Below, piece after piece: positions 34,264 through 61,388 of a DNA stretch of 64,000 nt. The DNA is from Novosphingobium sp. G106 (GTDB taxonomy: Bacteria; Pseudomonadota; Alphaproteobacteria; Sphingomonadales; Sphingomonadaceae): assembly GCF_019075875.1 (NCBI RefSeq), contig NZ_JAHOOZ010000001.1:4402001-4466000 (forward strand), read 5' to 3'. The notes under the pieces are model-generated. The model saw only the letters and a list, made by a program, of their open reading frames with translations. It made no database searches and was not told the DNA's origin. The translations under genes and the position numbers were made by a program. Within the stretch, counting starts at the first letter, position 1. Every line of letters begins with the position of its first letter.

Positions 34264-34277
34264 GGGAGCGCCGGGCG

Positions 34278-38706: not shown

Positions 38707-38714
38707 GAACTGCC

Positions 38715-39837: not shown

Positions 39838-39923
39838 GCTTATAGTACCCGCGGGATCACAGCCCGACTCGTGAAAATCGAGCGATGCGGGTAACTTGGG
39901 CGGCATTACAAGGGGGACGGAAA

Positions 39924-41283: not shown

Positions 41284-41865
41284 ATGGCCGAAAATGCCGA
41301 GGGGAAGCCGCCGGAGGTAAAGCCTCCGACGGCACCCGCGCGTAATGCCGACGGGTTCTCGGTCCAGGCGATCCACCTGGTCCGCACGACCCAGCAGATC
41401 AACGTCACGCTGAGTCAGATGGCGGATGCCAAGGCGTCGATCCTGATGGGCGCGACTTTCGTCGTCTTCACGATCTCGGTCGGCCAGGCCAGCAAAGGCG
41501 CGGTTCCCTATGCGCTGCTGGTGCTGGCGCTTTCCGCCTTTCTCTCGGCCTTTTGCGCCGTAATGGCGGTCATGCCGTCGTTTCGTCCGCCGCCGCGCAA
41601 TCCGGGTCAGGAGAATATCCTGTTCTTCGGCGTTTTCGCGGAAGGCAGCGAGCAGGACTATGCCGACCGCGTGCTCGATCAGCTGCGGTCGGACGAGACG
41701 GTCTTCCGCACGATGCTGCGCGATTCCTATCAAAACGGCGTCGTGCTGCACCGGAAGAAGTATCGCTTCCTCGGCTATGCCTATCGCATCTTCCTGACCG
41801 GACTGACGCTGACGCTGATCACTTTCCTGATCGAGAGCCACTCCAGCTTGCTACCCTTTCTATGA
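41284..41865 (+). CDS. DUF5706 membrane protein, similar to Pycsar effector PycTM
   Basis: A 193-residue membrane protein with an N-terminal soluble segment (HLVRTTQQINVTLSQ) leading into ADAKASILMGATFVVFTIS, the family hallmark, then spans at about 56-74, 79-102 and 165-188. In Pycsar anti-phage systems such proteins are opened by cyclic UMP or CMP made by a partner cyclase and damage the membrane. No cyclase gene is visible beside it, and many DUF5706 proteins are orphans, so a defence role is not shown. It lies four bases after gdhA. Confidence 0.68.
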   Translation: MAENAEGKPPEVKPPTAPARNADGFSVQAIHLVRTTQQINVTLSQMADAKASILMGATFVVFTISVGQASKGAVPYALLVLALSAFLSAFCAVMAVMPSFRPPPRNPGQENILFFGVFAEGSEQDYADRVLDQLRSDETVFRTMLRDSYQNGVVLHRKKYRFLGYAYRIFLTGLTLTLITFLIESHSSLLPFL

Positions 41866-42928: not shown

Positions 42929-45427
42929 GTGGACGCTCGCGTTCGCATTGCCATCATCGGTTCTGGGCCCGCCGGGCTCAGCGCTGCGTCGCGCGCGGCG
43001 CAGCTGGGGCTGTCGCACGTCCTGATCGAGAAGACCGACCATCTCTCGGACACGATCTACAAGTACCAGAAGGGCAAGCACGTCATGGCGACGCCCTCGT
43101 CGCTGGTGCTGCGCTCGGAACTGGATTTCGATGCCGGCAAGCGCGAGGTCGTGCTTGGCACCTGGGACGAACAGACCGCGGCCAACAAGGTCAACGTGCT
43201 CTACAATGCCGAGATCACCGCGATCACCGGCGCGAAGGGCGATTTCACGCTCAAGACCAAGAAGGGCGACACGATCACCGCCGAGACGGTGATCCTGGGC
43301 ATCGGCACCCAGGGCAATCCCAACCTCGTGCGCTGCCCGGCGGAAGAGGGCACGATCGTCCAGTACCAGCTCGACGATCCCGGCGAATACATCGACGAGC
43401 ACATCACCGTGATCGGTGCGGGCGACGCGGGCATCGAGAACGCGATCGGCCTCGCGGCCGATCCGATGCAGCGCAACAAGGTCACCATCGTCAACCGCTC
43501 GGCCGATTTCGCCACGGCCAAGGACGCCAATATCAAGGCGCTGCTGGCGATGGAAGCCGAAGGCCGTATGCAGGTGCTGCGCGAGACGACCGCGTCGCAC
43601 ATCGGCGGAGGCACGATCACATTCGACACGCGCGACGGCGAGCTCAAGGTGCCCTGCAACCGCGTCATCGCGCGCATGGGCTCGGCCCCGCCGCGAGCCT
43701 TCGTCGAGGGGGGCCTGCGCCGAGTACGAGGAAAAGGACGGCAAGAAGGCGATCAAGCCGGGCACCGGCATCCAGTTCACCAGCAACGACCGCGTCGCCT
43801 ATCCCAAGCTTTCGCCGACCTTCGAATCGACCGTCCCTGGCATCTATGTGATCGGTGCGCTCGCGGGCTATCCGCTGATCAAGCACTGCATGAATCAGGG
43901 CTACGACGTCGTCGAGTTCATCAACGGCAACACCACGCTCAAGCCGGCCGACGAGCCGATCCTGGCGGGCAAGTTCGCCGTCTTGCCGGGCAAGCGGTCG
44001 GTCGACGAGTGGCTGACGACTTTCGGCACGAACATCGACATCTTCAAGGAAGTCTCGCCGCTGCAGCTGCGCGAGTTGATGCTCGAATCGAACGTCGCGA
44101 GCTTCGCCAAGGACCAGACGGTGTTCCTGCGCAACGAGCCGGGGACTTCGCTTTTCGCCATCGCGCAGGGCTCGGTCCTGGTCGAGATCGACAAGGACGA
44201 TCCGTCGAAAGTCGTGCCGATCCCGCAGGGCTCGATCTTCGGCGAGGTCGGCCTGATCTCGGGCCGTCGCCGCGGCTCGACGATCCGCGCGGCCGAGCCG
44301 ACCGTCGTGGTCGAACTGTCGCGCAACGCCGCGCTCAAGTTGATTTCCACCGTGCCGCCCGCGGGACGCGCGATCACGCGCATCTCGATCGAACGCCAGC
44401 TGCTGCAGATCTTCGGTTCGGGCCTGACCAGCGAGGACGTCGCCGAAGTGGTCGAGGGCGCCGAGGTCATGGACGTCCGCGCCGGCGGTGTGGTGATCAC
44501 CGAGGGCGACAAGGGCGACGACATCTACGTCATCCGCCGCGGCTCGATGATCGTCGAGAAGACGATTGCCGGCAAACCGGTGTTCCTATCTTACCTGCCG
44601 GCCGGTTCCTACGTCGGCGAGATGGCGCTGATCGACGGGCTGCCGCGCTCGGCCACGGTCAAGGCGGCGATCAAGTCCGAAGTGATCCGCCTGCCGGGCG
44701 AGGCCTTCGGCCGGCTGCTCGCCAAGAAGCCGCAGCTGCTCAAGAAGGCTCAGGCCGATGCCGCCGGCCGCCGTGACGTCAACGCCTTCATTGAAGGGCG
44801 CAAGGACATCTTCTCCAGCGTCGTCGACATGTATTCGGAAACCGCGCGCTTCCTGATCGAGAACGGCATCGGCGAGGCGACCGACGTGCTGCTGATCGAC
44901 GAGACGCTCTGCGTCGGCTGCGACAACTGCGAGAAGGCCTGCGCCGACAGTCACGAGGGCCTGTCGCGATTGAACCGCGAGGCGGGCCGGACCTATGCCC
45001 ACCTTCACGTGCCGACGAGCTGCCGCCACTGCGAGCATCCGCACTGCATGGCCGATTGCCCGCCCAACGCGATCAAGCGCGGCCCCGATGGCGAGGTGTT
45101 CATCGACGACACCTGCATCGGCTGCGGCAATTGCCAGCGCAACTGCCCCTACGGCGTGATCCGCATGGATTCGGTGCCGCCCCCAAGCCGTCGCTGCTCG
45201 AATGGCTGTTCTTCGGCAAGGGCCCGGGACCGGGCGAACCGTCGAAGTACTGGCGCAAGAAGAACGCGGTGCCGGGCGAGGAAAAGCCCAAGAAGGCGAT
45301 CAAGTGCGATATGTGCTCGGGCATCGAAGGCGGCCCGGCCTGCGTGCGCGCCTGCCCGACCGGCGCCGCGATCCGCGTCGCGCCCGAGGCCTTCCTCACC
45401 GTCGCACGGCTGGGGGACGAGGGCTGA
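42929..45427 (+). pseudogene. FAD/NAD(P) oxidoreductase - two cNMP-binding domains - four-cluster ferredoxin fusion; frameshifted as read
   Basis: With two single-base corrections it reads as one protein of about 832 residues. Order: an FAD/NAD(P) domain (IIGSGPAGLSAAS near residue 9, second dinucleotide motif VIGAGDAGIENA near 165); two cyclic-nucleotide domains (about 390-485 and 505-600), the second with a textbook phosphate cassette GEMALIDGLPRSATV and the first with GEVGLISGRRRGSTI; then a DmsB/NrfC-like ferredoxin with sixteen Cys for four [4Fe-4S] clusters (CVGCDNC, CRHCEHPHC, CIGCGNC, CDMCSG...C). The breaks are at six G (43708-43713, expected five) and five C (45180-45184, expected six). 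GTG 42929 is the likely start. It probably feeds electrons to the adjacent cytochrome b, gated by a cyclic nucleotide (inference). Confidence 0.8.
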
Positions 45428-46305
45428 TGGCTACCCGTGCGCGTCAGAGCGGCCAACAATCGGGCCGCGAGATCGTCACCGATCACGAGGGCTTCCTGCG
45501 CCACGCGGGCTTCCGCTGGCTGAAGATCGCGTCGGTGATCTGCGTGATCGCGGTGATCGGCTATATCGGCGCCGACGTGAAGCCGCGGCCCAACGGCGGT
45601 TCCTGGTACGGCTATACGCTGGGCACGATCGGCGCGCTGTTGATCGTCTGGCTGACCCTGCTCGGCTATCGCAAGCGGCACATGTCGCGCGGGGCCTGGT
45701 CGCTCAAGGCCTGGACTTCGGCGCACGTCTATCTCGGGCTTTCGTTGATCGTCATCGCGACGCTGCACACCGGCTTCCAGTTCGGCTGGAACGTCCACAC
45801 CCTGGCCTATGCGCTGATGATGCTGGTGATCCTCTCAGGCATCTTCGGCATCAGCGCCTATGCGACGTTGCCGCAGGCGCTAAGCAACAATCGCGGCGAA
45901 TTGACGCAGGGGCAGATGCTCGATGCGCTGCGGGCGATCGACCGCCAGTTGCATGAGGCGGCCCAGCCGCTCGACCGGCACTATGCCGATCTCGTGCTGG
46001 CGGCGCTCGAGCAGGATCCGTTCGCCGGCGGGCTGATGACGCGGCTCGGCGGCCGGTATCGCTCCTGCGCGACGCGCGCGGCGGTGGACGGTTTCAACCG
46101 GGCGACCCTCGCGGAGTCGAACGATCCGGTGATCCAGCGCATCGAATCGCTGCTGCAGCGGCGCGCGTCGCAGCTCGACCGGATGCGGCGGCATATGCGC
46201 ATCAGGGGCCTGTTGGAGGTGTGGCTCTATGTCCACGTGCCGGTGACCTTTGCGCTGCTCGCCGCCCTGACCGCGCATATCATCAGCGTCTTCTATTACT
46301 GGTAG
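45427..46305 (+). CDS. membrane cytochrome b-type protein
   Basis: A 292-residue integral membrane protein with spans near 32-52, 62-80, 98-120, 126-148 and 265-292. Two spans carry spaced His pairs (HVYLGLSLIVIATLH, and HVPVTFALLAALTAH near the C-terminus) suited to bis-His ligation of two b hemes. A soluble loop of about 110 residues lies between the fourth and fifth spans. Its ATG overlaps the stop of the FAD/Fe-S gene (TGATG). It probably passes electrons between the cytoplasmic or quinone side and the multiheme protein encoded next. Confidence 0.75.
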   Translation: MATRARQSGQQSGREIVTDHEGFLRHAGFRWLKIASVICVIAVIGYIGADVKPRPNGGSWYGYTLGTIGALLIVWLTLLGYRKRHMSRGAWSLKAWTSAHVYLGLSLIVIATLHTGFQFGWNVHTLAYALMMLVILSGIFGISAYATLPQALSNNRGELTQGQMLDALRAIDRQLHEAAQPLDRHYADLVLAALEQDPFAGGLMTRLGGRYRSCATRAAVDGFNRATLAESNDPVIQRIESLLQRRASQLDRMRRHMRIRGLLEVWLYVHVPVTFALLAALTAHIISVFYYW

Positions 46306-46320
46306 GGGGCGTCGGGGGGC

Positions 46321-48042
46321 ATGACTTCAGTGGGGGCATTCAGGCTCAGAACGATCGACACGACGGCCGATGGCCGGCAGATCGTGCGCGACCGCGACGT
46401 AGCCGCGACGACTTTGAGCGTCGGCCGTTCGGCGGAGAACGACATCCACCTGCCCGACCTCGCGGTCGATCCCGAGCATGCGACGCTCGAACTGCAGGGA
46501 ACTCGCGTGGTTGCCACGGCCAAGGGCACGCTGGGCTTCGGCGTCGACGGGGTCGTCAGCCAGTCGGCCAGTATCGACCCGTCGCGGGGCGCCGAGCTGC
46601 GCTTCGGCAGCTACAATCTGACAATCTCGCGCGATGCCGACGGCACGCCGCTGATCACGATCGCGCAGGTCGCGAGCCAGGATGCGGGCGAGGCAACCGA
46701 CGAGAAGCATCGCTTCTCGCTAGCGACGGCGATTCCGGGCAAGCGCACAGCGGCCTGGGTGCTGGGGCTGCTCGTGCTTGTGGCGTTCCTGGCCTTTCCA
46801 GTGGTCAGCAACCTCTGGCACCAGGCCAATCCTGCGGCGAAGGTCCACGGCGACAAGAGTTGGAGCGCCGGCCCGCTTAGCCTCGCGCACCATTCGCTCG
46901 AGGGCTCCTGCGAGTCCTGCCACGTCAAGCCGTTCGAGGCGGTGCGCGATACGGCCTGCGTCTCCTGCCACAAGGACGTCCACGATCACGCCGCTCCGGC
47001 GCGGCTGGCCCTGGCGCGCGGTGGCGGGCCGTGGGGCCAGCGGATGCTCTGGGCCGTCGCCCACGCGTTCAACAAGCCGGGCCCTGGTGCTTGCGTCGAT
47101 TGCCATACCGAGCACGAAGGGCCGACGCGCATGGCGTTGCCGGCGCAGCAGTTCTGCAGCGATTGCCACGGCGCGCTGAAGGACAAGCTGCCCGATACGC
47201 GGCTCGGCAATGCCAGCGATTTCGGCAAGATGCATCCGCAGTTCACCCCGGCGATCGTGACCGATCCGGTGACTGGACGGACCACGCCGGTTTCGCTCGA
47301 TGCCCATCCGCGCGAGAACAGCGGCCTCGCCTTCCCGCACAGCGTCCACCTCGATCCACTGGGCGGCGTGGCGCGCATGGCGGCTTCGATCGGCCGCGAG
47401 AAGGGCTATGGCCGCGCCGGGCTGCAGTGCGAGAACTGTCACCACGCGACCGAGGACGGCGTGCGCTTCCAGAAGATCAACATGGAGCGCGATTGTGAGG
47501 CCTGCCACAGCCTGGCCTATGACAAGGTCGGCGGCACGGTTCGCCGGCTGCGGCATGGCGATGTCGACCAGATGATCGCCGACCTTTCCGCCGCCGGTCC
47601 CAATGCCCCGATCGCCGCGGACCGCCATCGGCCCGGGCAATTCGCACCTGGTGGCAATTATCACATCAATTTTACCCCGCCGCGCTATACAAGTGCCACT
47701 TTCCAGCAGGCGCTATCGAAGGACGGCGTCTGCGGGGAGTGCCATACGCCGGTGATGCGGAACGGTAAGCCGGGGGTCATGCCGGTCAGGCTAGTCTCGC
47801 GTTACATGGTGGATGGCTGGTTCAACCATAAGGCCCATACTCAGGAGAAGTGCACCTCTTGCCATGCCGCCGAGAAGTCGGCGTCCTCTACCGACCTGCT
47901 GCTGCCGAACGTGCAGTCATGCCGGACCTGCCATCAGGGCGAGGACAGTCACCAGGCGAAAGTGCCTTCGGGTTGTGCCATGTGCCACGGCTATCACCCC
48001 ACGCAGAATGCCCCGCGTGGAGCGAAAGACGATAGGACATAA
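46321..48042 (+). CDS. FHA domain - transmembrane - decaheme cytochrome c fusion
   Basis: A 573-residue protein with three parts. Residues about 1-110 form a cytoplasmic FHA (phosphothreonine-binding) domain with SVGRSAENDIHLPDL. One span at about 144-166 follows. The periplasmic part has ten CXXCH heme motifs starting near residues 197, 213, 258, 279, 370, 392, 471, 511, 534 and 552 (CESCH, CVSCH, CVDCH, CSDCH, CENCH, CEACH, CGECH, CTSCH, CRTCH, CAMCH). It may be the inner-membrane exit of an electron chain, with phosphorylation-dependent recruitment on the cytoplasmic side. An FHA domain joined to a multiheme cytochrome is unusual to my knowledge. Confidence 0.88.
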   Translation: MTSVGAFRLRTIDTTADGRQIVRDRDVAATTLSVGRSAENDIHLPDLAVDPEHATLELQGTRVVATAKGTLGFGVDGVVSQSASIDPSRGAELRFGSYNLTISRDADGTPLITIAQVASQDAGEATDEKHRFSLATAIPGKRTAAWVLGLLVLVAFLAFPVVSNLWHQANPAAKVHGDKSWSAGPLSLAHHSLEGSCESCHVKPFEAVRDTACVSCHKDVHDHAAPARLALARGGGPWGQRMLWAVAHAFNKPGPGACVDCHTEHEGPTRMALPAQQFCSDCHGALKDKLPDTRLGNASDFGKMHPQFTPAIVTDPVTGRTTPVSLDAHPRENSGLAFPHSVHLDPLGGVARMAASIGREKGYGRAGLQCENCHHATEDGVRFQKINMERDCEACHSLAYDKVGGTVRRLRHGDVDQMIADLSAAGPNAPIAADRHRPGQFAPGGNYHINFTPPRYTSATFQQALSKDGVCGECHTPVMRNGKPGVMPVRLVSRYMVDGWFNHKAHTQEKCTSCHAAEKSASSTDLLLPNVQSCRTCHQGEDSHQAKVPSGCAMCHGYHPTQNAPRGAKDDRT

Positions 48043-48075
48043 GAAAAAAGCGGTCGGAGAATACGTGAGGCTTTT

Positions 48076-48927
48076 TTGCTGATCGCCCAGATCACCGACG
48101 TTCACATCGGCTTCGACCGGGGCAATCCGGACGAGCTCAACATGCAGCGGCTGCGCGCCGTGATCCGGCGGTTGGCCACGGGGCCGAACAAGCCGGACCT
48201 GCTGCTGATGACGGGTGACCTGACCGAGGCCGGCGATGCGGACAGCTATGCGCGGCTGGCCGATGCGGTGAGCGGGTGCCCATTCCCGGTCTGGCCAATG
48301 GTCGGCAATCACGATGAGCGCGATACCTTGCTCGCGGCCTTTCCGCAGACGCCGTCGGACAGCGGCTTTGTCCACTATGTTCTCGACTTTCCCGGCCTCC
48401 GGCTGATCGTGCTCGATACGCTCGAGCCCGGCCGCCATGGCGGGGCCTTCTGCGAGGCGCGGGTGGCCTGGCTGCGCGCGGAGCTGTCGCGCGATCCTGG
48501 AACGCCGACCTATATCGCCATGCATCATCCGCCGTTCGAATCGGGCATCACGTGGCTCGACAGCGCGGCGACCGAGCCGTGGATCGCGCGCTTCGCCGGG
48601 GCGGTGCAGGGCTTCTCGCAGATCCGGGGGATCATCGCCGGCCATCTCCACCGCACGATCCATACGCAGTGGAACGGGTTGTCGCTGAGCGTCTGCTCGT
48701 CGACGGCGCCCGCCGTCGGCCTTGATCTCAGCCCGATCGACGAAGACCGGCCCGACGGGCGCGAGCTGATCACAGACGAGCTGCCCGGCTATGCGCTACA
48801 CCGCTGGGACGGGCGGAATCTGATCACCCATTTCGAAAGCGTCGGCCACCAGATCGCGCTGGCACGCTTTGATGCCCAGCTTCAGCCGATGATCAAGGGC
48901 ATGATGGCCGAGCGGCGCGAGAAGTAG
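48076..48927 (+). CDS. CpdA-like class III cyclic-nucleotide phosphodiesterase
   Basis: Calcineurin-type metallophosphoesterase of 283 residues with all metal motifs: QITDVHIG, TGDLTEAG, GNHDE, MHHPPF and GHLHRTI. This spacing and the flanking sequence are typical of 3',5'-cAMP phosphodiesterase CpdA. The start is TTG 48076, preceded by GTGAGG. It lies 33 bases after the FHA-cytochrome gene and two genes after a protein with two cyclic-nucleotide domains, which suggests it clears their ligand (inference). Confidence 0.83.
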   Translation: MLIAQITDVHIGFDRGNPDELNMQRLRAVIRRLATGPNKPDLLLMTGDLTEAGDADSYARLADAVSGCPFPVWPMVGNHDERDTLLAAFPQTPSDSGFVHYVLDFPGLRLIVLDTLEPGRHGGAFCEARVAWLRAELSRDPGTPTYIAMHHPPFESGITWLDSAATEPWIARFAGAVQGFSQIRGIIAGHLHRTIHTQWNGLSLSVCSSTAPAVGLDLSPIDEDRPDGRELITDELPGYALHRWDGRNLITHFESVGHQIALARFDAQLQPMIKGMMAERREK

Positions 48928-48930
48928 CCG

Positions 48931-49752
48931 CTACTTCGTTCCAGCGAGCTGCGAGGCGGCCAGCCACTTCTCGCGTTCCGCATGCCGCCGCCCGTCGTGC
49001 AGCGCAACCACGTCGAGCCCGTGCTGACCGAGGATGAGCCGCCGCGGCGGGGTGGGATCGGCAAGCGCGGCAAGTAACGCTTCGGCGCCGTCGCGCGCAT
49101 CGTGGCCCGCGCCCCAGTGCGAATTGCCCGATTCGATCGACAGCGCTGCCATGTCGTAATGCGGCGAGGGCGGGATGAAAGTCATCGAAGGCGTGAAATG
49201 CGTTTCGAACGGCCCGAGCTCGGCGAGTGTGACGTTGATCCCGAGCGGCTTCATTTCCGCGCCCAGCGACTCCGTCAGCCCGGCGAGCGCGAACTTGGAC
49301 GAGCTGTAGTAGGAAATACCCGGGAACCCGATCTGCCCGGCGACTGAGCCGATGTTGACGATCTGCCCCGAACGCCGCGCGATCATGTCGGGCAGGACTG
49401 CCTTGATTAGCGCCAGGGTGCCGAAATAGTTGGTTTCGAAGACTGCGCGTGCCTCGTCTATCGGGGCGTCGTCCACAGTGCCGAAGCCGCCATAGCCGGC
49501 GTTGTTGATCAGCACGTCGATCGCGCCGAAGCGGTCCTTCGCCGCTGCTACCGCCTGTTCGATATCCTCGCCGCGGGTGATGTCGAGTTTCAGGGCCAGC
49601 GCAAGCTCGTCATGCCCGGCAACCAGATCTGCCAGCGTTTCGGGCTTGCGCGCCGTCGCGACCACGCGCTCGTCGCGCGCCAGCAGGATTTCGGCCAGGA
49701 CGCGGCCGAAGCCGGTCGAGCAGCCGGTGATCATCCAGGTCCGTGCAGGCAT
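48931..49752 (-). CDS. short-chain dehydrogenase/reductase
   Basis: Classical SDR of 273 residues: cofactor motif TGCSTGFGR at the start, NNAGYGG near residue 85, and the active-site Ser/Tyr/Lys in IGSVAGQIG and YYSSSKFAL. The substrate is unknown; the closest style is the SDR group annotated as oxidoreductases of NADP type. ATG 49752 follows GGGGGA. It is convergent with the phosphodiesterase gene, three bases apart. Confidence 0.88.
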   Translation of the reverse strand: MPARTWMITGCSTGFGRVLAEILLARDERVVATARKPETLADLVAGHDELALALKLDITRGEDIEQAVAAAKDRFGAIDVLINNAGYGGFGTVDDAPIDEARAVFETNYFGTLALIKAVLPDMIARRSGQIVNIGSVAGQIGFPGISYYSSSKFALAGLTESLGAEMKPLGINVTLAELGPFETHFTPSMTFIPPSPHYDMAALSIESGNSHWGAGHDARDGAEALLAALADPTPPRRLILGQHGLDVVALHDGRRHAEREKWLAASQLAGTK

Positions 49753-49832
49753 GCGATTCCCCCAAAGAAGCGTTTGCTTGCTTGTCGGGCGCATCGCCTG
49801 CCGCCGTCAACTACGATCGATATAAGGAATGC

Positions 49833-50162
49833 CTAGGCGGCGACCTTGAGTCCGCCGGCTCTGGCGTCGTCCGGGCATTGATAGAGGCGGTAGCCGATGG
49901 TCCGTCCGCAATTGTCGATACGGAAAGTGCCGATCTTGCGTGCAAGATGCATCATCCTCTGGACGATCTGGCCTTCGGGATATTCGGGTTCGGCGTCGGG
50001 ATCGGGATAGACGGTGTCGATCAATTCGTTGATCGTGACGGGATTGGGGTAACGGATAAGCAATGTCGAAAGCAGTTCGGTTTCAATTGGCGACAGATTG
50101 ACCGTCCAATCTCCGATACTGCATTGACTACGCCGGTACTGCGGCCAAGTCATGGTGATCAT
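49833..50162 (-). CDS. winged-helix DNA-binding protein (OmpR/PhoB-type C-terminal domain)
   Basis: A protein of about 109 residues with a PhoB-like winged-helix: NLSPIETELLSTLLIRYPN, an inserted acidic loop, VQRMMHLARKI (recognition helix region) and the wing GRTIGYRLY. There is no receiver domain. The start is uncertain: ATG 50162 is used, and a TTG-initiated frame to 50336 would add 58 non-domain residues. The AT-rich gap 50163-50407 then serves as a regulatory region, with no other feature seen. Confidence 0.6.
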   Translation of the reverse strand: MITMTWPQYRRSQCSIGDWTVNLSPIETELLSTLLIRYPNPVTINELIDTVYPDPDAEPEYPEGQIVQRMMHLARKIGTFRIDNCGRTIGYRLYQCPDDARAGGLKVAA

Positions 50163-50407
50163 TGTAATGGGTGCTAGTCCATAGGCGGCGTAAAACGCCG
50201 CTCTGTGTGTATTTCTGTAATTGGGCGACCGAGGGCTCTGAATGTCGTGTTCAGTTGCTATTCTAGCTAGAGAAAGTTCCAGCTGCGGCACAGTTACATG
50301 CGATATTTGGTGTATGACGCGCGCCGAACGACGCAACGCTTTGCAAATAGCGACTTATCCACAGGCCGTATGTCAAGTCGGTGACGATTTTCGGCCGTGA
50401 CAGGGCT

Positions 50408-51958
50408 TTACCGCGGCTTGACGGGGCCTCCCAAGCCCTTCGGTTTTGGCGAAAACCAGACGACCACGGCGCAGAGGAAGAACACGGCTGCGGTGATCAG
50501 GAAGATGTAGTCGACCGCCATGGTCGTTGCCTCACGGTCGACGAGATTGGCGATATAGGCGGTCGCGCCCTGCTCGCTGAAGCCCGCGCCGGTGAGCGTG
50601 CGCATCGTCTCGGCGGGCTGGAGCTTGCCGACGATCTCGCTGTGGGCTTCCTGCTGGGTATTGCCCTGTATCGTCAGCACCAGCGCGGTGGCGACGCCGA
50701 TCGCCAGGGTGCGCACGAAGTTCTGGATGCCCGCGGCCGACGCCGTCTCTTCCATCGAGACCGAACCCAGCGAGATCGTCGTCAGCGGCAGCATGAAGAA
50801 CGACATGCCGAAGCCCTGGATCAGCTGTGGTGCGGCGAGGTACCAGAAGTCGGTCTCGCTGGTCCAGGTCGCGCGGACCAGCGCCATGCAGCCGAGCCAG
50901 GCGACGGCGAGGGACACCAGCAGCCGCGCGTCGATCCCGCGCGCCAGCGCCTTGGAAGCGAGCTGCGAGGTGGTCAGCGCGGCGAGCGCGGTGCACGAGG
51001 TGATGAAGCCTGCGAGCATCGCCGGATAGCCCATCGAGCTCTGTAACCACTGCGGGATCAGCACGATCGAGGCGAAGTACGCACCGAAGCACAGCGACAG
51101 CGCGATCACGCCGAAAGTGAAGCCGCCGTGGCGGAACACGCGCAGGTTGACGATCGGATGCTCCTCGGTGAGCTCCCAGATCAGGAAGGCGACGAAGCCG
51201 ACCGCGGCGACGCAGGCCAGCACGACGATCAGCGGGTCGGCGAACCAGTCGTGCTCGCGGCCGATGTCGAGCATGAACTGCAGCGATCCGACCCAGGCCA
51301 GCATCAGGCACAGGCCGATCACGTCGATCGGCAGCTTGACCGTCGGCGTCTCGGCCGGCGGCAATAGAGCGCGCGCAGAAAGGATCAGGACGATCACCAG
51401 CGGAATGTTGATCAGGAAGATCCAGTGCCAGCTGACGTTGTCGCTGATCAGCCCGCCGATCGTCGGTCCCATCGCCGGTCCCAGCATCGTCGTCATCGCC
51501 GCCAGCAACATGGCGCGCGGGCGCTGCTCCAGCGGAAAGATACGCAGCAGCAGAGTCTGCGCCAGCGGCATGACGAGGCCGCCGCAGAGCCCCTGGCCGA
51601 CGCGGCAGATCACCATCATCTCGAGCGTCACCGACGAGCCGCAGAGCAACGAGAAAAAGCCGAAGCCGGTCATCGCCAGCGTGTACATCCGCAGCGAGCC
51701 CCAGCGCCCGGCCAGCCAGCCGGTCAGCGGCACGGTGATCGCCTCGGCCACCGAGTAGGAGGTGATGACCCAGGATCCCTGGTTGAGCGAGACCCCCAGG
51801 CTGCCGGCGATATGCGGCACGGAGACATTGGCCACGGTCATGTCGAGCACGACGATGAAATTGCTGAAGGCCAGCACGAGTGCCGCGAGAGTCAGCCGCT
51901 GCGGCGTCAGCAACGGATGCGCCAGCGTGGCGGCCTGAGCGGTGAGCGGTGCGGCCAT
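50408..51958 (-). CDS. DHA2-family MFS transporter (EmrB/QacA type, 14 spans)
   Basis: Proton-driven exporter of 516 residues with about 14 hydrophobic spans. MFS motifs are present: the DMTVANVSVPHIAGSL start typical of EmrB, GWLAGRWGSLRMYTLA (motif A), and GLCGGLVMPLAQTLLLRIFP. No EmrA-type adaptor is adjacent. It begins four bases after the decaheme-propeller gene ends and so looks like the last gene of that operon; it may export a redox-active small molecule or be an unrelated drug pump. Confidence 0.9.
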   Translation of the reverse strand: MAAPLTAQAATLAHPLLTPQRLTLAALVLAFSNFIVVLDMTVANVSVPHIAGSLGVSLNQGSWVITSYSVAEAITVPLTGWLAGRWGSLRMYTLAMTGFGFFSLLCGSSVTLEMMVICRVGQGLCGGLVMPLAQTLLLRIFPLEQRPRAMLLAAMTTMLGPAMGPTIGGLISDNVSWHWIFLINIPLVIVLILSARALLPPAETPTVKLPIDVIGLCLMLAWVGSLQFMLDIGREHDWFADPLIVVLACVAAVGFVAFLIWELTEEHPIVNLRVFRHGGFTFGVIALSLCFGAYFASIVLIPQWLQSSMGYPAMLAGFITSCTALAALTTSQLASKALARGIDARLLVSLAVAWLGCMALVRATWTSETDFWYLAAPQLIQGFGMSFFMLPLTTISLGSVSMEETASAAGIQNFVRTLAIGVATALVLTIQGNTQQEAHSEIVGKLQPAETMRTLTGAGFSEQGATAYIANLVDREATTMAVDYIFLITAAVFFLCAVVVWFSPKPKGLGGPVKPR

Positions 51959-51961
51959 GAC

Positions 51962-54900: not shown

Positions 54901-56047
54901 ACGGTGCGGCCATCTTGTTGGCGATCGTCGGGTCCACGGTGATCGTCTGCCCGTCGCGGCCAAGCGAGGCGTAGATCGAGCTGTGCCGCGGCTCGCGGTC
55001 GTTGGCGTAGATCACGTGGCAGCTCGTGCAGCCCGAATGGCGATAGTCGCCCGGCTGGTCGTTGGTGCCCATGAACCAGGTGTAGGGATCGTTGAGGCGC
55101 GTCTTGTGGATGTTGAGCACCGGGATCGCCACGCGCAGGCCCGTGGCAGGGCCGCGGTTCGACTGCTTGAGGTCGGGCCGGCCCGGTTCTTCCAGGCGCT
55201 GAATGATGCCGTTGGGATTGGGCAGGCCGATCTCGGCGAACTGGCTCGACACGTTGCGCCCGCCGCGCTCGAACACGCGGAACACGTCGCCCGGCGGGAT
55301 CACGTTCCAGCGCGGCAGCGGATAGAGCGCCGCCAGCACGCCGCGCGCCCTCTGCGCCTCGGTGATGGTTCCCGGCGGACTGCCCGGCGAGACGATCTTC
55401 GCGGGCTGGCCGTCCTTGGTATAGCCCTCGCCGAAGATGTAGTTTTTGAACGGAACGATGCCGTTGTTGTAGGCCGCGCCGCCGAACAGCATCGCGCCCG
55501 AGGCCATCAGTGAGCGCTCGGCCGCCTCGATCACCGGCATGTGGCAGGCCCCGCAGGATTCGCGCGCGACGCGGTAGTCGCCGGGATTGACGAAGCGGAC
55601 GAACTCGGGCGCTTCCTTGTTGAGCAGGGTGTAGCTGCGCGGCGGATTGGCCGATGACGGATAGTGCCAGCTATGCGGATAGCGCGGCAGCACATGCGCC
55701 TTTTCCATCGCGCGCTGGTTGAAGGCGTCGTCGTAGCCGAGCTCGGGCTTGCCCCAGGCGGCCTTGGAAACTGCGTCGCCGCCGTGGCAGTCGGTGCAGC
55801 CCAATTGGACCGCGGTCGTGACGTGCATCGTCGGCGCGTCGGTCTTGACGTGGCACGAGAGGCAGCCGGCGGACTTCGCCTCGACATCGGCTACCGACTG
55901 CCGCGCCGGGGCGGGCTTGCCGCGGACCAACGAATAGTCGCGGGTCACGGGCTTTTCCGCGTCGTTCGCTAGCGTCCGCGCAGCGGGCACGAGCAGCGCG
56001 CCGACGACCAGCGCGAGGATCAGGAGGAGGGAGCGCAGCTGCCGCAT
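51962..56047 (-). CDS. exported decaheme cytochrome c with C-terminal LVIVD beta-propeller
   Basis: A 1361-residue protein with a Sec signal (LILALVVGALLVPAARTLA). Ten CXXCH motifs lie between about residues 62 and 852 (CLSCH, CTDCH, CGACH, CTSCH, CMNCH, CADCH, CKDCH, CFTCH, CGGCH, CTDCH). From about 960 to 1270 there are at least six LVIVD-like repeats, for example YMFVAEGSGGFKVYDI and YAYVAAKQDGLVIVNV, forming a probable propeller. Next to an outer-membrane barrel gene (TGATG overlap), it is likely the surface or outer-membrane terminus of an electron conduit. The propeller could bind a substrate, partner or surface. Confidence 0.87.
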   Translation of the reverse strand: MRQLRSLLLILALVVGALLVPAARTLANDAEKPVTRDYSLVRGKPAPARQSVADVEAKSAGCLSCHVKTDAPTMHVTTAVQLGCTDCHGGDAVSKAAWGKPELGYDDAFNQRAMEKAHVLPRYPHSWHYPSSANPPRSYTLLNKEAPEFVRFVNPGDYRVARESCGACHMPVIEAAERSLMASGAMLFGGAAYNNGIVPFKNYIFGEGYTKDGQPAKIVSPGSPPGTITEAQRARGVLAALYPLPRWNVIPPGDVFRVFERGGRNVSSQFAEIGLPNPNGIIQRLEEPGRPDLKQSNRGPATGLRVAIPVLNIHKTRLNDPYTWFMGTNDQPGDYRHSGCTSCHVIYANDREPRHSSIYASLGRDGQTITVDPTIANKMAAPSQHGALKGEHHDDHATPEAGGVKESGHPLQHVFTRAIPTAQCMNCHMHQPNIFLNSFLGYTMWDYESDAPKMWPEQQKYPTAKEVREINERNPEGAAPRGKWADLDFLRNVYDLNPELKDTQFADYHGHGWNFRGIFKRDREGNLLDAQGNMATYGTDKAHIIDPNDPEKWRKAGAPKFADVGSQPGKAVHMMDIHAEKGMQCADCHFAQDSHGNGLIYGEVANAVEIGCKDCHGTADEYPTLLTSGPAAPPKGNNLALLRNGDGQRRFEWSTDSFGRRTLIQRSIVDPRLSWQVSLVKDAVDPSSPNFNAKSARAKLMSASGMEDGKFGFGPGVPLAGRAHKEGEVACFTCHLSWTTSCGGCHLPIEANWKTAMHHYEGEETRNFATYNPQVARDEMFQLGKHMTTKGNETAPIRSTSALVLSSTNLNRERIYIQQPPISAIGFSSQAFAPHFPHTVRLNETKTCTDCHLSKADDNNAIMAQLLLNGTNFVNFVGLNAWTGLEGGFEAVRVTEWDEPQAVIGSYLQKYAYPDYYKMHVEQNGRELKNWVRGKTFAGKASGETHPLEDFRNIVQGTRDRVGCLQMRGEYMFVAEGSGGFKVYDIASVANKGFSDAVVSSPFSSLGQQNHVATTNATCMALPTNQAIAPTRNIPELRGINQEQPFSPIYNYAFVTDSAEGLIAVNVDTFADGEFRNNDIRRALTFNPDGVLTGARHITLAGDFAYIVTDKALVTVHLTKPWSREKPCEITANDTCLAPEVTSVVPLSDPRATAVQFRYLWVTTANGLELFDVTQLAKPQHIPSATVPLANARRIYLARTYAYVAAKQDGLVIVNVTKPLAPTIYMKANFDGQLSDAEDVIVGSTNASLFAYVADGRNGLKVIQLTSPSSQPNFYGFSPAPRPELIAWAKTPSPALALSKGLDRDRAVDETGGQMAVFGRLGSRPFTRSEMERLFLNSRGVPFKVSDEVDMSAWVPAAYRK

Positions 56048-58035
56048 CAGTAGGCCACGATGATGTTGGCGAGGATCGAATAGTAGTTCCTATTCCCGCC
56101 CGCGTTGTCGAAGAGGTCGCGGAAGCCCTTGCCGGGGAGCAGGGCAGCCGCCGAAAGCCGGAATACGATATTCTGCGTCGCCTTGGGCCGCCAGATCGCC
56201 GCCGTCGAAAGGTCCCAGCCGATCGTCTTGGGGATCGAGCCCTCGACACGCAGTGCCTGCAAGGTCGCGGTGTTCTGGAACCACAGGTGGTTGGCATTGC
56301 CCGAAAGCCGGAACTCGGGGGTCAGATCGAAATCCGCGCCTGCGCCCAGCAGCATGGTACCGGGATTGTTGAAGTTCGACTGGCCCTGTTCCTTCGACGA
56401 GCGCAGGTCGTTCAGGATGCCGTTGCGCCCGCTGATCGAGATGACGCGGCCGCCGCCGGCGAAGGGGATCGTCTGGCGGATCCAGTACGATGTGTCGGCG
56501 CCGGCGAAGATCGGGTTCTCGAAGATCGCGTCGAAGCCGGTTTCCTTGTTGTCGTAAGGCCTGCCGTCGCCGCTTGCATAGAGCCCCGAGAGGCGGAAGC
56601 GCATCCAGTCGTGGTCGTAGCTGATCTCGGCCGCACCGAAGAAGGCGCGGATGTCGGCGGGCTTGCCGGTGAAGAAGCTGTTCTTGTCCTTGCCGAGCGC
56701 GGCATAGGCCGAGGCGGTGAGATTGATCCGGCCGATATGCCCGTCGGCGTTGTAGCCCAGATAGAACACGTCGTAGTCGCGCCCGCGCAGGTTGCCGAGC
56801 AGTGCCGGGCGCACGGGGAAGCCGTTGTCGTCGATCTCAATGTCGCCGGCTTCGCGGTTGCGGTTGTAGACCAGCGTGATCTGGCTGGTCAGCGACGGGA
56901 TCAGGAAGTCCTGGCGATAGGCGTTGGCGATGAAGACGAAATCGTCGCGCAGCTTCTCGGTCAGGTTGTTGAGGCCGCTGTTGGTGTCCTTCTCGATCCG
57001 CCAGAAGGCGGCGAGGTTGTACTGGAAGCGGTTGTTGTCGCGGTTGCCGAACAGGCGGATGCCGAGCTGGTTGTCGTTGAACAGGAAGCCGCGGAAATCG
57101 GCCTGGAACGGCTGGATGCCGACGCGGACTGAATCGAAGTCGTAGCGGTCCGAGACGTTGCGGATGTGATAGTCGATGAAGGCTTCCTGCAGGCCGACGA
57201 AATTGTCGTCGCGCTTGGTGCCTTTCGAGGGTTCGACGAACAGCACGCGCCGCTCGGGCACGGTGACGTGGCTGTAGTTGAACGCCACGGCGACGCGGTA
57301 TTCGATCTCGGGCGGCTTGAACGCGGTCTGGCCCTTGATCAGCGAGGCGCTGGCGATGAAGCTCTGCGAGAAGACGAAGCTTGCGTCCTTGCCGAAGACG
57401 TCGAGGCTCTGCGGCCGCGCCGTGGTCTGGACGCCGACCGGGATCGGGAAGGTCCGCGGTTCGAGCACGCTGTCGCTGACGAGGCCGAGGTTGATGAACC
57501 AGTCGTCACCCTTGAGGAAGCCCGGCCGGCTCTCGCCCAGCGGGATGTCGCCCTTGAGCACGTTCTGATGATAGGGATTGGTCTTCGAGTGGCAGACCTC
57601 GCGCATCGCGTGGAACTGGGTGAACAGGGTCTGGTCGGCGCCTTTGGCCGGGCAGAGGCCGGTCAGGATGCGCCAGCGGTCGGGCACCGGCAGCTGGTCG
57701 GTCGGGAAGGCTTCGGGCGGCGGCGCACGGACGGCACCGGCGTTGTTCTGCACCGCTTCCTCGGGAAGCTTCTCGTTGTAGCCGGGGCGGCGGCGGCCAT
57801 CGATGATGCCGCTGTCGACCTCGGCCGGTGCCGGCTCCTCACCGGGAGGCAGCATGACGGGGCGTTCGGGAGCAGGCGCCGCGCCGCCGAAGGTCGGATC
57901 GGGCACCTCACCGGGCACCGTTCGCTCGGGCGCGGACTTGGCCGTCTCCGGCTCTCCTCCGGGCGCAGCCGCTTCGCCGGCATCGACCGGAAACGGTGCG
58001 AGCAGCAAGGGCGCGAGGAGGAGCGGAACCGCCAT
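56047..58035 (-). CDS. outer-membrane beta-barrel protein of the cytochrome operon
   Basis: A 662-residue protein with signal peptide (LLLAPLLLAPFPVDAGEA), a Pro/Glu-rich stretch to about residue 100, then a long region of alternating amphipathic strands (for example YRVAVAFNYSHVTV and FRLSGLYASGDG), and a C-terminal aromatic residue (Tyr) as in barrels. It has no heme motif. By position it may play the role of MtrB/PioB-type porins that sheath a cytochrome through the outer membrane; its sequence is not obviously of that family. It overlaps both neighbours by one base (TGATG). Confidence 0.72.
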   Translation of the reverse strand: MAVPLLLAPLLLAPFPVDAGEAAAPGGEPETAKSAPERTVPGEVPDPTFGGAAPAPERPVMLPPGEEPAPAEVDSGIIDGRRRPGYNEKLPEEAVQNNAGAVRAPPPEAFPTDQLPVPDRWRILTGLCPAKGADQTLFTQFHAMREVCHSKTNPYHQNVLKGDIPLGESRPGFLKGDDWFINLGLVSDSVLEPRTFPIPVGVQTTARPQSLDVFGKDASFVFSQSFIASASLIKGQTAFKPPEIEYRVAVAFNYSHVTVPERRVLFVEPSKGTKRDDNFVGLQEAFIDYHIRNVSDRYDFDSVRVGIQPFQADFRGFLFNDNQLGIRLFGNRDNNRFQYNLAAFWRIEKDTNSGLNNLTEKLRDDFVFIANAYRQDFLIPSLTSQITLVYNRNREAGDIEIDDNGFPVRPALLGNLRGRDYDVFYLGYNADGHIGRINLTASAYAALGKDKNSFFTGKPADIRAFFGAAEISYDHDWMRFRLSGLYASGDGRPYDNKETGFDAIFENPIFAGADTSYWIRQTIPFAGGGRVISISGRNGILNDLRSSKEQGQSNFNNPGTMLLGAGADFDLTPEFRLSGNANHLWFQNTATLQALRVEGSIPKTIGWDLSTAAIWRPKATQNIVFRLSAAALLPGKGFRDLFDNAGGNRNYYSILANIIVAY

Positions 58036-60011
58036 CAGAGCCCCTGGCAGACGTTCTGGTCGGCGGTGTCGAGGAACGGCGCGAAGGGGCAGCCGACATA
58101 GCGCAGCCGGACCGTGCTGTTGTCGGCCAGGGTGACCACCACGGTGTCCGAGCGGATCGCCGCGGGGGCATTGTTCACCGTGCCGAGGACCTTGCCGGCA
58201 TTGTTCAGCCCCAGGAAGCTGATCATGTCGTCCTGGTCGATGCCGTCGCCCGAAACGCCGATCGCGCCGATCAGCACATTCCCGCGGTAGATCGGCACCG
58301 CTCCGGGGAAGATCTGGATGCCGTTCTGCAAGCGGTTCTGCCCCGGCGCGGCGTCGGGGATCGAGGTGCAACGCTGCGGCGTATCGGTCGCGCTGGCGCC
58401 GGTCACGAATTGGAGGTGCTGGCCCAGATTGCCGAAGATCAGCGCCGATTGCAGCCCGGTCGAGAAGGGATTGAACTTGCCGATCGGGCGGCCGAACGGC
58501 CCGTTGGGCCGCCCGACTTCGCCATCGGGGAAATAGGGCCGCGAGATATTGCCGATGGCGCGGTCGGCGAAGGCGATCTTGCCGGTCAGCGCCGTGGGAT
58601 CGTTGAAGAAGGTGCGTGCGGCCGGGACCATGCTGCGTACGTCGCTGCTGGGGTCGGCCAGCAGGTCCGAACCCGCATTGGCGTTCGAGAAGAACGAGAC
58701 CGTCCGGGCCTTCTGCAGGCTCACGTCGATGCCGAAGATCGGCGCGTCGGGCGCGCGCACGATGCCCAGCACGACGCCGCGCGTGTCGACCAGCGAGACC
58801 GTGACCTGCGCGCGGCTGTCGAGCGGCTGGCGGATCTGCCCGCGCGCGCGCGACATGACGGTGAAGGCTTGCTCGAGGATCGTGCGGGCTTCCTGCGCGG
58901 TCAACGCGGTGCCGACATCGGCGGCGTCGGTGCCCGCACGGATCGGGTAGCGGTTGGCACCGGCGCCGTCTGACAGCACGAAGGCTTCGTTGTTGCTGAA
59001 ATCGGCGGTCGTCGCGCGTCGGATGCCCGAGGCCTCGCTGCCATAGGGCGTACCCGCGAGGATCGCAGCGGTCGGATAGTAGCCGGTTATCGTGACCAGG
59101 CTGCCCAGCGCGGGCGCCGTCGCGGCGTAGGTCGCCGTGCTGACGTTGGTCAGCGCCGAATAGTCCGCGTCGCTGTAGCGCAACGCGCTTCCGTCCACGT
59201 TGATCTTGTTGGCGCGGATCAGTTCCTGCGCCTCGAAGCCGACCGTTCCGGCCAGCGCGATGCGTTCGTCGACGTCGCTGTCGACGTCGAGGGTATTGGC
59301 ATCGAAGCCATAGACGCCGTCCGCCGAGACGCCGATGCCGCCGACGAGCACGCCGTTCTTGTAGAGTGGGAAGCCGCCGGGGTCGGCGGCGAGGCCGAAC
59401 GGCGAGCGTTTGGGGCCGATGAAGGCGCTGGCGCCGCCGCCGATCCGCGCCGCCAGGTCGGAGCAGGGCAGCTGGCTGAACTGCACGCCGTAGAGCGGGC
59501 CGCTTTCGAGCCCCGCGGTCGTCGGGGCGGGCGGGAAGTGCTGCTGGACGATCTGGCTGGCCGTGCGCGTCGAGAAGGCGTTGCCGCCGCTCGACAGGTA
59601 GGCGCCGGTGATCGCCTTGGCGAGCGCGGCGCCCTCGGCGGGAATGTCGAGCCCCTGGACATCCTGCTTCGAGCCGTCGGGCGCTTCGGGAATATGCGCA
59701 TTGGCCGGTGCGCCGGTCATGCGGAACGCGGCGAGGACGTTGCCGACGCGGTCGACCACGACGATCACCGCCGGCTTGCTGTCGGCCTTGGCCTGCGCTG
59801 CCGCCTGGGCGACGACCTTCTGGACATCGGCGACGGTCAGCGATTCCTGCGCGGGCGCGGTGAAATCCTGTGGCGGCGGGGTGGGACTCGGCGTCGGTGC
59901 CGGGCTGGGAGTTGGCGTTCCGCCGCCGCCGCTCGAATCGGTGCCGCTACCGCCGCAGGACGCGAGCAGCAGCGAGGCGATCGCGGTCATCGTGACGAGG
60001 CTGGAACGCAT
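58035..60011 (-). CDS. lipoprotein with two GlcG/HbpS-type domains
   Basis: A 658-residue lipoprotein: lipobox LLLASC (Cys 19), a Ser/Gly/Pro-rich linker to about residue 50, then two GlcG/HbpS-like domains. The first (about 60-290) contains AVIVVVDRVGNVLAAFRM and GVLVGGIGVSADG; the second (about 365-635) contains VSLVDTRGVVLGIVRAPDA and NVLIGAIGVSGDG. HbpS proteins of this fold bind heme and respond to redox state. It may bind heme or a partner cytochrome in the conduit. It is coupled to both neighbours by TGATG overlaps. Confidence 0.8.
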   Translation of the reverse strand: MRSSLVTMTAIASLLLASCGGSGTDSSGGGGTPTPSPAPTPSPTPPPQDFTAPAQESLTVADVQKVVAQAAAQAKADSKPAVIVVVDRVGNVLAAFRMTGAPANAHIPEAPDGSKQDVQGLDIPAEGAALAKAITGAYLSSGGNAFSTRTASQIVQQHFPPAPTTAGLESGPLYGVQFSQLPCSDLAARIGGGASAFIGPKRSPFGLAADPGGFPLYKNGVLVGGIGVSADGVYGFDANTLDVDSDVDERIALAGTVGFEAQELIRANKINVDGSALRYSDADYSALTNVSTATYAATAPALGSLVTITGYYPTAAILAGTPYGSEASGIRRATTADFSNNEAFVLSDGAGANRYPIRAGTDAADVGTALTAQEARTILEQAFTVMSRARGQIRQPLDSRAQVTVSLVDTRGVVLGIVRAPDAPIFGIDVSLQKARTVSFFSNANAGSDLLADPSSDVRSMVPAARTFFNDPTALTGKIAFADRAIGNISRPYFPDGEVGRPNGPFGRPIGKFNPFSTGLQSALIFGNLGQHLQFVTGASATDTPQRCTSIPDAAPGQNRLQNGIQIFPGAVPIYRGNVLIGAIGVSGDGIDQDDMISFLGLNNAGKVLGTVNNAPAAIRSDTVVVTLADNSTVRLRYVGCPFAPFLDTADQNVCQGL

Positions 60012-61388
60012 CAGCGCAGCGCCTCGATCGAGCGGGCGGCCTGGCCCAGCGCGGCGCGGAAGGCGGGCGGGTCGTAGCTGGTCGGGCTGGCGACCGCGGC
60101 ATAGGCACGGTTGACCTGGGCGCGGATGCCGGCCGCGGCGCCGACAGTGATCCGGCCTTCGCGGACCAGCGCGTTGAGCAGGGTGTCGACACCCATTACC
60201 GCCTGTGCAGAGCCGGTATAGTCGGTGAAGCGCGGGCTGATCGCGCGGCCGGCGATCGCATCGATCACGGCGAAGGCGCTGTCGGGATTGGCGCCGCGCG
60301 CCGCCATGGCGCTCGACAGAGCCGAAGCCGCCGCGCGCAGCTTGCCGGCGGCGGCGACAGCCTGCGGTCGGCCCTGGCCCATCGCCGTGTGGAACTGGCG
60401 GCTCGCGGCATCGAATGCGCCGGCCTGGCCGGGTGCCAGCACCTGCGCCACGGCCGAGAGCATGATGATGTTCTCGTCGTTGTAGGGCGGCAGGCCGAAG
60501 GGCATCGGCCTGCCGGGATTGACTTCGAACTTGCGCGGGCGGTTCGGCTGGTCGTCGATGCCGCGGTGGCAGCTATGGCAATCGAAGAAGTAGAACTGCG
60601 GGAACAGGCCTTCGGTCGCGAGCTGCGGCTGGGCGAAAAGGCCGAGCGAGCGCTGGACTGCTTCGGCCTGGCCGACCGCCCAGAGCCGCACCGGAATCGC
60701 CGCCGCCCTTGCGCTGCCTGTAGTCGGCGTCCTCGTCCCAGTGGCGCTGCAGGTCGGAGAACAGGTCTAGCTCGAACGCGACGCGCGGATGGCCGGCGGC
60801 CATCATGCCGTGAGTGACGAACTGGCCGGGCTTGCCGCTGCCGAAATGGCAATCGAGGCAGACCGAGGCGCGCGCCTTGGGATTGTCCAGCGGGATCATG
60901 CCCTGGGCGATGTTGCTCACATGGGTGGCGGGCACGGCATAATGCGTCGAGAGCCAGCCCGATGCCGCGCCGTGGCACGATTCGCAGCCCACGCCATCGC
61001 TCAGCTGGAAGCGCGGGCCGCGCTCGCCGGGGCCGGCATTGGTTGCATGGCAGCCGAGGCAGGCCGAAGCGCTGTTGGCGTTGCCCAGGCCGAGCGAGGC
61101 GGCGATCTTCTGGCCGCGGGCCGAGCCGAGCGCGGCATAGGCGCGGCTGTGCGCGCCGCCTTTGCTCGAAGGCTCCTGCCAGTGCATGAGTTCGTCCTGG
61201 CGGACGACCTTGCCGTCACCCTCGCTGCGGCCGTGGCAGGTCGAGCCGGCGCAGCTGGCGACGCCCTGGTAGAGGCCGCCGGCGACCGCCATCGATCCGC
61301 CGGTCAGCAGCAGCGCCAGGACGATGAATAGGCGCGCCCAGACCAGCCGTCCGGTCCGCACCCCCTGTGCCGCTGCCGTCCTCATCAT
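60011..61388 (-). pseudogene. pentaheme cytochrome c, first gene of the leftward operon; frameshifted as read
   Basis: Membrane-anchored or exported (hydrophobic segment about 17-36) multiheme cytochrome. The first half carries CAGSTCH (a CX4CH heme motif, residues 46-52), CLGCH, CESCH and CLDCH. A one-base shift near 60694-60708 then ends the frame in nonsense, and the second half (VRLWAVGQAEAV onward) continues in another frame with CHSCH, for five hemes in about 458 residues. Deleting one base in the GGCGGCGGCGATT region joins them as GIPVRLWAV. ATG 61388 or 61385 follows AAGGGA. It probably shuttles electrons across the periplasm. Confidence 0.78.

Follow-up and report, generated by a model that had tools for sequence, protein, structure and literature searches.

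Why do sphingomonads, which are common aerobes used for pollutant degradation and are not known for electron export, carry two opposed rows of genes rich in multiheme cytochromes, and where would such genes send electrons? The question is raised by Novosphingobium sp. G106 (contig NZ_JAHOOZ010000001.1), in which positions 42929 to 61388 of an analyzed stretch of 64,000 nt (the window) had been read in a first-pass annotation as a cyclic-nucleotide-linked electron conduit of seven proteins from cytoplasm to cell surface. Here, we report that this gene set is real, strongly conserved, and functionally undescribed in the literature surveyed. We tentatively prefer, as a quite possible reading, an eight-gene electron-delivery system controlled by cyclic nucleotide monophosphates (cNMPs) and taking electrons from NAD(P)H in the cytoplasm to a decaheme-propeller protein at the outer membrane. 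The members are a flavin adenine dinucleotide (FAD)/Fe-S flavoprotein, a cytochrome b, and the FHA-decaheme protein FHA10 (the inner module), the phosphoesterase MPP, and the propeller protein PROP10, the outer-membrane barrel OMB, GlcG, and the pentaheme cytochrome PENTA (the outer module; Table 1).

PROP10 was used to scan one public genome collection, in which at least 587 of 595 pattern-matched stretches were confirmed as holding relatives; the best 80 of these loci, titled as sphingomonads (including erythrobacters) or just as Alphaproteobacteria or Proteobacteria, were kept. Counts of relatives and of their open reading frames (ORFs) are given below. Genomes were also sampled from the order (99 genomes, 26 of them in the family of the window), the class (115), and the phylum (299). 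The genome-wide search of the order sample covered PROP10, FHA10, GlcG, and a 492-aa cNMP/Fe-S piece of the flavoprotein (OMB, PENTA, cytochrome b, and MPP lay outside it).

Near-full-length matches to all four queries fell in the identical 11 of 99 genomes, an agreement with a chance probability of 7.9e-15 over the 99 genomes and 1.3e-7 within the family's 26 when the relatedness of genomes is ignored. Counting any match, PROP10 was found in 12 genomes (one short match), FHA10 in 14 (three weak), GlcG in 30, and the cNMP/Fe-S piece in 81; the matches beyond the 11 genomes were weak (E values of at least 1.8e-8 for GlcG and at least 1.7e-14 for the cNMP/Fe-S piece). The two rows need not be adjacent: PROP10 and FHA10 were unlinked in 5 of the 11 genomes (G148, G178, G187, G193, and G210), where they lay on separate contigs or hundreds of kilobases apart, and in another (G172) all eight genes were encoded in the same direction within 16 kb. 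Taken with the number of confirmed PROP10 relatives, the identical distribution of these components, four of the seven proteins whose co-occurrence had been proposed as a check, is beyond chance.

Gene order agreed with this distribution. PENTA, GlcG, and OMB were present in 65/66 PROP10 loci with more than 6 kb upstream, and the flavoprotein, cytochrome b, and FHA10 in 49/67 loci with at least 6.5 kb downstream; OMB stood beside PROP10 in 75 of the 80 loci. MPP adjoined FHA10 in 54/55 loci and in all five genomes with far-apart halves. In the class sample, PROP10 was matched in 8/115 genomes (the window's own, four with a near-full-length match, one with a fragment, and two with short partial matches), and in the phylum sample in 12/299, of which five were near full length (the window's own, G125, G132, G148, and G449) and seven short. 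All six alphaproteobacterial genomes outside the family with a full or cut-off PROP10 (G029, G067, G087, G093, G449, and G007) also held FHA10, which was looked for and not found in the two genomes checked (G022 and G112) of those with short PROP10 matches alone. Three of the six, from other alphaproteobacterial families (G029, G067, and G093), kept a same-strand row of flavoprotein, cytochrome b, FHA10, GlcG, OMB, and PROP10, and PENTA lay near the set in G029 and G087. Among 72,556 plasmid records, 13 held PROP10, and 12 of these, from Sphingobium, also held FHA10 and the cNMP/Fe-S piece. Co-occurrence and linkage together support the view that the genes work as a single unit in the Sphingomonadales sampled, and their order fits flow from cytoplasm through inner membrane to outer membrane, as the first-pass annotation had supposed.

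Reading frames and Pfam domains placed all seven named proteins about where they had been annotated and added two genes that had been overlooked, those of MPP and of a divergent tetratricopeptide repeat (TPR) protein. The heme counts given for FHA10 and PROP10 held, with ten CXXCH motifs in each (FHA10, 63/63 relatives as well as the window; PROP10, 85/86 relatives), and the supposed pentaheme cytochrome carries four CXXCH motifs and one CX4CH (69/69 relatives). The domains and the overlaps were likewise recovered, neighboring minus-strand genes sharing one base at 56047, 58035, and 60011; the flavoprotein and PENTA genes, however, are frameshifted in the window rather than single open frames.

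At the cytoplasmic end, the flavoprotein matches Pyr_redox_2/3 (PF07992/PF13738), cNMP_binding (PF00027) in two stretches, and 4Fe-4S families including PF13247 (E value, 9.8e-10). Motifs resembling phosphate-binding cassettes, with Glu and Arg, occur twice in 52/59 flavoproteins and once in 7/59. The adjoining cytochrome b has four hydrophobic segments (Kyte-Doolittle scale) and a weak Ni_hydr_CYTB (PF01292) match below cut-off; both WX3HX13H motifs are kept in the window and in 66/67 relative ORFs of at least 270 aa, and SGXXG is present in the window and in 56/67. In two genomes outside the class (G239 and G351), the flavoprotein and cytochrome b are fused as one ORF, which supports direct electron transfer between them. 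FHA10 combines an FHA domain, a hydrophobic segment (residues 144 to 162), and c7/c3 heme domains, with approximately 41 residues per heme in its periplasmic part.

The supposed cyclic-nucleotide link was strengthened by MPP, since a gene resembling those of cNMP phosphodiesterases is part of the set. Its best resemblance among Protein Data Bank (PDB) sequences is to Rv0805 (E value, 6e-24), a cyclic-nucleotide phosphodiesterase, and it is labelled cpdA in a plasmid record of Sphingobium sp. TomTYG65. All four metal motifs (DxH, GD, GNHD, and GHxH) are seen in the window; GNHD and GHxH occur in 61/61 relatives, and the strict patterns for the other two in 44/61 (DxH, within the first 60 residues of a stop-to-stop ORF) and 40/61 (GD[LT]). 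By sequence, MPP is similar to the Rv0805/CpdA class III phosphodiesterases, differing in that it is encoded inside a row of redox genes. The genome also has five class III cyclase matches.

In the outer module, PROP10 begins with a hydrophobic segment (residues 4 to 22) that has no lipobox cysteine, has approximately 83 residues per heme in its heme part, and had no match among PDB sequences at an E value of 0.1. PENTA matches Cytochrome_C554 (PF13435). GlcG has LLLASC at its N-terminus in the window, and a simple lipobox pattern was found in 49/74 relatives (stop-to-stop ORFs). OMB has a weak Alginate_exp Pfam match below cut-off, and its predicted structure has 18 long strands in an AlgE/OprD-like fold (mean pLDDT, 65). 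No match to MtrB_PioB (PF11854) was found in OMB at an E value of 0.01 or in the whole genome, a family for which 14 control genomes were also all below cut-off; MtrB was not among the 50 Foldseek or 50 VIA matches listed for the OMB model, which excludes nothing. On this model, OMB probably lacks the width to enclose a wire of many hemes, and an 18-strand AlgE-like barrel beside a protein with PROP10's heme spacing makes a wire through the barrel doubtful. OMB also differs from AlgE/OprD-type channels in having cytochromes as partners and a long conserved N-terminal extension.

We propose that electrons would pass from NAD(P)H to FAD, on to the [4Fe-4S] clusters and the two b hemes, then through FHA10's ten hemes to PENTA and PROP10. 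FHA10, held in the inner membrane by its anchor, would serve as a compact wire through the periplasm, its cytoplasmic FHA domain acting as a phospho-dependent docking or control site. PROP10 would lie at the outer membrane, on the periplasmic side rather than at the surface, with OMB coupled to it and the lipoprotein GlcG alongside, and the acceptor would be admitted or exposed by OMB. Binding of cyclic AMP (cAMP), or of another cNMP, to the two cNMP domains would gate the flavoprotein, and hydrolysis of the nucleotide by MPP would reset it. A fitting role for the TPR protein would be c-type cytochrome maturation.

Several observations weigh against this proposal. Both genes that depart from single open frames do so at defined places, the flavoprotein within a G run near 43710 and again near 45180, and PENTA near 60690; the flavoprotein is one ORF in 59/61 relatives and PENTA a single ORF in 69/69, the annotated genes of Sphingobium herbicidovorans MH look intact, the G-run position of one frameshift is compatible with sequencing error, and the window frameshifts may reflect such error or decay. 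Confidence in the OMB model is middling, and an AlphaFold2 model of the PROP10 heme part (32 sequences; pLDDT, 38) was left unused. In other alphaproteobacterial families, the stretches retrieved for G067, G093, and G449 showed no PENTA, and those for G029, G067, G087, and G093 no MPP; in G449, MPP (36% identity) lay approximately 5 kb from FHA10. Strict FNR-/CRP-like operator patterns gave no conserved site upstream of the flavoprotein (63 loci), PENTA (69), PROP10 (82), MPP (62), or GlcG (72), with TTGAN6TCAA in 1/69 PENTA regions and TGTGAN6TCACA in 4/62 MPP regions, so nothing indicates low-oxygen use.

The remaining points of this kind come from the phylum sample. The FHA10 profile matched 70/299 genomes of the phylum sample, mostly via one domain, and an FHA-plus-multiheme protein beside a FAD/cNMP/Fe-S protein and cytochrome b was also seen in four genomes (G352, G239, G351, and G212), in none of which did a search run without a positive control find PROP10. 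G352 keeps the flavoprotein, cytochrome b, FHA10, GlcG, and OMB up to a contig end. The inner module stands without PROP10 in G239, G351, and G212, all outside the class, and the stretches retrieved for G239 and G351 showed no outer module. The inner module therefore has other partners too and looks more ancient or more general than its outer counterpart, which speaks against a strict all-or-none set outside Alphaproteobacteria.

The closest published relative found is the putative porin-cytochrome conduit (PCC) type PCC4 (He et al. 2017, PMC5566968; here and below as far as the parts of that paper drawn on go), which comprises a porin, cytochromes with 4, 5, and 10 motifs, and an inner-membrane protein carrying SGXXG and two copies of WX3HX13H, upstream of which Subgroup II encodes an Fe-S (pfam13247) protein. 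Compared by description, the window shares the cytochrome b signature and, in its flavoprotein, PF13247, and the single annotation of the Fe-S and membrane genes in Oceanospirillum beijerinckii PCC4 resembles the fused ORFs of G239 and G351. A porin and multiheme cytochromes are also shared, the cytochromes here having 10, 10, and 4+1 motifs and the barrel being AlgE-like. The words FAD, cyclic, cNMP, and Sphingo are absent from the main text of the paper, and a propeller decaheme protein, GlcG, and a phosphoesterase are unmentioned in its sections 15 to 17. The set studied here would be a variant of this putative porin-cytochrome kind, its membership being unproven. PCC3, which includes Erythrobacter sp., shares the cytochrome b signature and a porin with multiheme cytochromes, but its cytochromes have medians of 34 and 21 hemes at 22 to 39 residues per heme, against 10, 10, and 5 hemes here, and its porins up to 42 predicted transmembrane regions, against the 18 strands of the OMB model (PMC5566968).

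Similarity to MtrCAB, MtoAB, and PioAB is confined to decaheme cytochromes, an outer-membrane barrel linked to them, and a path from inner to outer membrane; here the barrel is AlgE-like and lacks an MtrB_PioB match, PROP10 has no PDB match, and electrons would enter via an NAD(P)H flavoprotein instead of a quinol dehydrogenase. MtrA homologues have approximately 33 residues per heme, against a typical value of approximately 60 to 70 ± 30 (PMC5566968, in the part used), compared with approximately 41 in FHA10, which also has a membrane helix and the FHA domain, and approximately 83 in PROP10. Residues 574 to 624 of PROP10 locally resemble ExtM of the Geobacter Ext/Omb systems around two heme motifs, a match that scored 57 bits where the cut-off is 800 and that reflects no more than a heme-motif segment in common. 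The structural analogy to porin-cytochrome conduits that had been drawn is, given the barrel fold, the missing MtrB_PioB match, and PROP10's heme density, unsupported so far. The statement that no such sphingomonad system had been described calls for a reservation: no description of the set was found among the matches listed in open PMC texts (subscription papers and preprints lay outside that search), and PCC4 shares the cytochrome b signature, PF13247, a porin, and cytochromes. A scan of approximately 60,000 genomes for multiheme gene neighborhoods (PMC11475568) has neither "Sphingo" nor "Alphaproteobacteria" in the main text as consulted, and its supplementary lists may hold the locus.

How far the electrons travel is where readings diverge. 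A true extracellular conduit, in which an OMB-cytochrome complex would cross the outer membrane and a surface-exposed PROP10 would reduce another cell, mediators, humics, or minerals, is possible though doubtful. The one-base overlap and near-constant adjacency of the OMB and PROP10 genes point that way, as do the PCC3/PCC4 signature in the cytochrome b and the appearance of LVIVD repeats in a study of tandem repeats found in cell-surface proteins (PMC2447325, in the part consulted), and this reading keeps weight because a large exoprotein-like gene recurs upstream of PENTA, ending less than 700 bp from it in 13/66 loci; in S. herbicidovorans, such a gene comes after a ShlB/FhaC secretion gene. 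An 18-strand AlgE-like model is nonetheless unlike MtrB, predicted to be a 28-strand porin (PMC7096707, likewise in part), PF11854 is unmatched in OMB and in the genome (with the control genomes likewise below cut-off), and PROP10 has neither a wire-like heme density nor an N-terminal lipobox cysteine.

The same neighbor would also suit a nonrespiratory role in redox housekeeping or sensing of the envelope, by which a component of the outer membrane, be it the exoprotein, heme bound to GlcG, or a metal, is kept reduced or peroxide is detoxified. HbpS-like domains in GlcG, the lack of a conserved FNR-like site, and the aerobic life of the hosts are in keeping with such a role; approximately 25 covalent hemes would be a costly way to fill it, and 15 of the 26 family members sampled have neither PROP10 nor FHA10. 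We think it unlikely. Very unlikely, in our judgment, is inward flow, with PROP10 or PENTA taking electrons from an extracellular or periplasmic donor to the inner membrane. He et al. hypothesize this direction for the putative PCC4, with which the architecture is partly common (PMC5566968, again for the portion used), but the row also encodes a FAD/Fe-S protein of the NAD(P)H type, so that an inward path would have NAD(P)+ reduction, an uphill step, at its end, and no quinol-specific subunit was recognized, though the cytochrome b might react with quinone.

Were delivery of electrons from NAD(P)H to the outer membrane correct, many sphingomonads (at least 80 loci; 11/99 genomes of the order) would hold a dedicated pathway with approximately 25 covalent hemes and direct cyclic-nucleotide control of electron input, a combination not met in the literature surveyed. 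A bolder version, which we offer as improbable on present evidence, is second-messenger-gated electron export by aerobic sphingomonads: cAMP would switch the NAD(P)H flavoprotein directly rather than via transcription, electrons would exit through a new outer module of AlgE-like barrel and decaheme propeller, to which some strains would add a giant exoprotein of the two-partner-secretion kind as surface scaffold or contact. Sphingomonas sp. BN6 reportedly carries out a membrane-linked, mediator-dependent extracellular reduction of azo dyes, for which the set would offer testable gene candidates, should BN6 carry it.

Table 1. Positions of the eight-gene set and the linked TPR gene in the window
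Feature	Description	Positions	Strand	Basis
Flavoprotein	NAD(P)H-type FAD oxidoreductase with two cNMP-binding domains and a multi-[4Fe-4S] domain	42929..45427	+	Frames, Pfam
Cytochrome b	Two WX3HX13H and SGXXG; probably two b hemes	45427..46305	+	Motifs, four hydrophobic segments (Kyte-Doolittle)
FHA10	FHA domain, one membrane helix, decaheme domain	46321..48042	+	10 CXXCH, PF00498, PF14522, PF14537
MPP	Calcineurin-like phosphoesterase resembling Rv0805; conserved eighth member	48076..48927	+	PF00149
PROP10	Decaheme domain and LVIVD propeller; signal-like hydrophobic N-terminal segment	51962..56047	-	10 CXXCH, LVIVD
OMB	AlgE-like outer-membrane barrel with N-terminal extension of ~170 residues	56047..58035	-	
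GlcG	Probable lipoprotein with HbpS/GlcG domains	58035..60011	-	PF03928, 3 stretches
PENTA	Pentaheme cytochrome, 4 CXXCH and 1 CX4CH; frameshift near 60690	60011..61388	-	PF13435, motifs
TPR gene	CcmH/CycH-type (CcmI-like) TPR protein; divergent, strongly linked ninth gene	41875..42798	-	PF23914

In 44/45 loci with room to show it, the TPR gene is divergent and lies no more than 2.5 kb from the start of the flavoprotein gene; it lies upstream of PENTA instead in four loci without a nearby flavoprotein gene. The C-terminal signature of the exoprotein, DEP[VI]TGxGN[ED]D, occurred 14 times in the 80 loci, 13 of these, from several named genera, at the site upstream of PENTA, where the window has no exoprotein-like gene. 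The protein of S. herbicidovorans (2092 aa) has no Pfam match and is two-partner-secretion-like. Examples of the gene are found at L003:3-4700, in 12 further loci, and at L134:1390-7668, and L108 and L114, from two unlinked genomes of one genus, have a gene of this sort close to the inner module. An antisense reading of the ORFs of approximately 1500 aa upstream of PENTA (no Pfam match) was rejected; an annotated Sphingobium plasmid has a coding gene there.

The two rows in the window are separated by positions 48931 to 51958, which encode a short-chain dehydrogenase/reductase (SDR), a small helix-turn-helix (HTH)-like protein, and a major facilitator superfamily (MFS) protein; these were rejected as members of the set, with the two genes used as queries matching in 5/80 loci (SDR, approximately 30% identity) and 0/80 (MFS), and neither of the two stands at this position in the 80 relatives. 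The fused flavoprotein-cytochrome b ORFs (L129:4850-8203 and L131:3052-6420) lie near a DUF1924 monoheme cytochrome gene. Large plasmids that carry the system include NZ_CP020539.1 and the AP0273xx Sphingobium records. Beyond the TPR gene, the window encodes a PycTM/2TM effector-like protein (41284 to 41865; Pycsar and CBASS-type models) and a Glu/Leu/Phe/Val dehydrogenase (39885 to 41279), the gene of which recurs in 33/80 loci, beyond the flavoprotein or just upstream of PENTA. Conjugation genes (CagE/TrbE/VirB4-like, TrbL, CagX, and TrbI) occupy positions 34188 to 39806, near the system.

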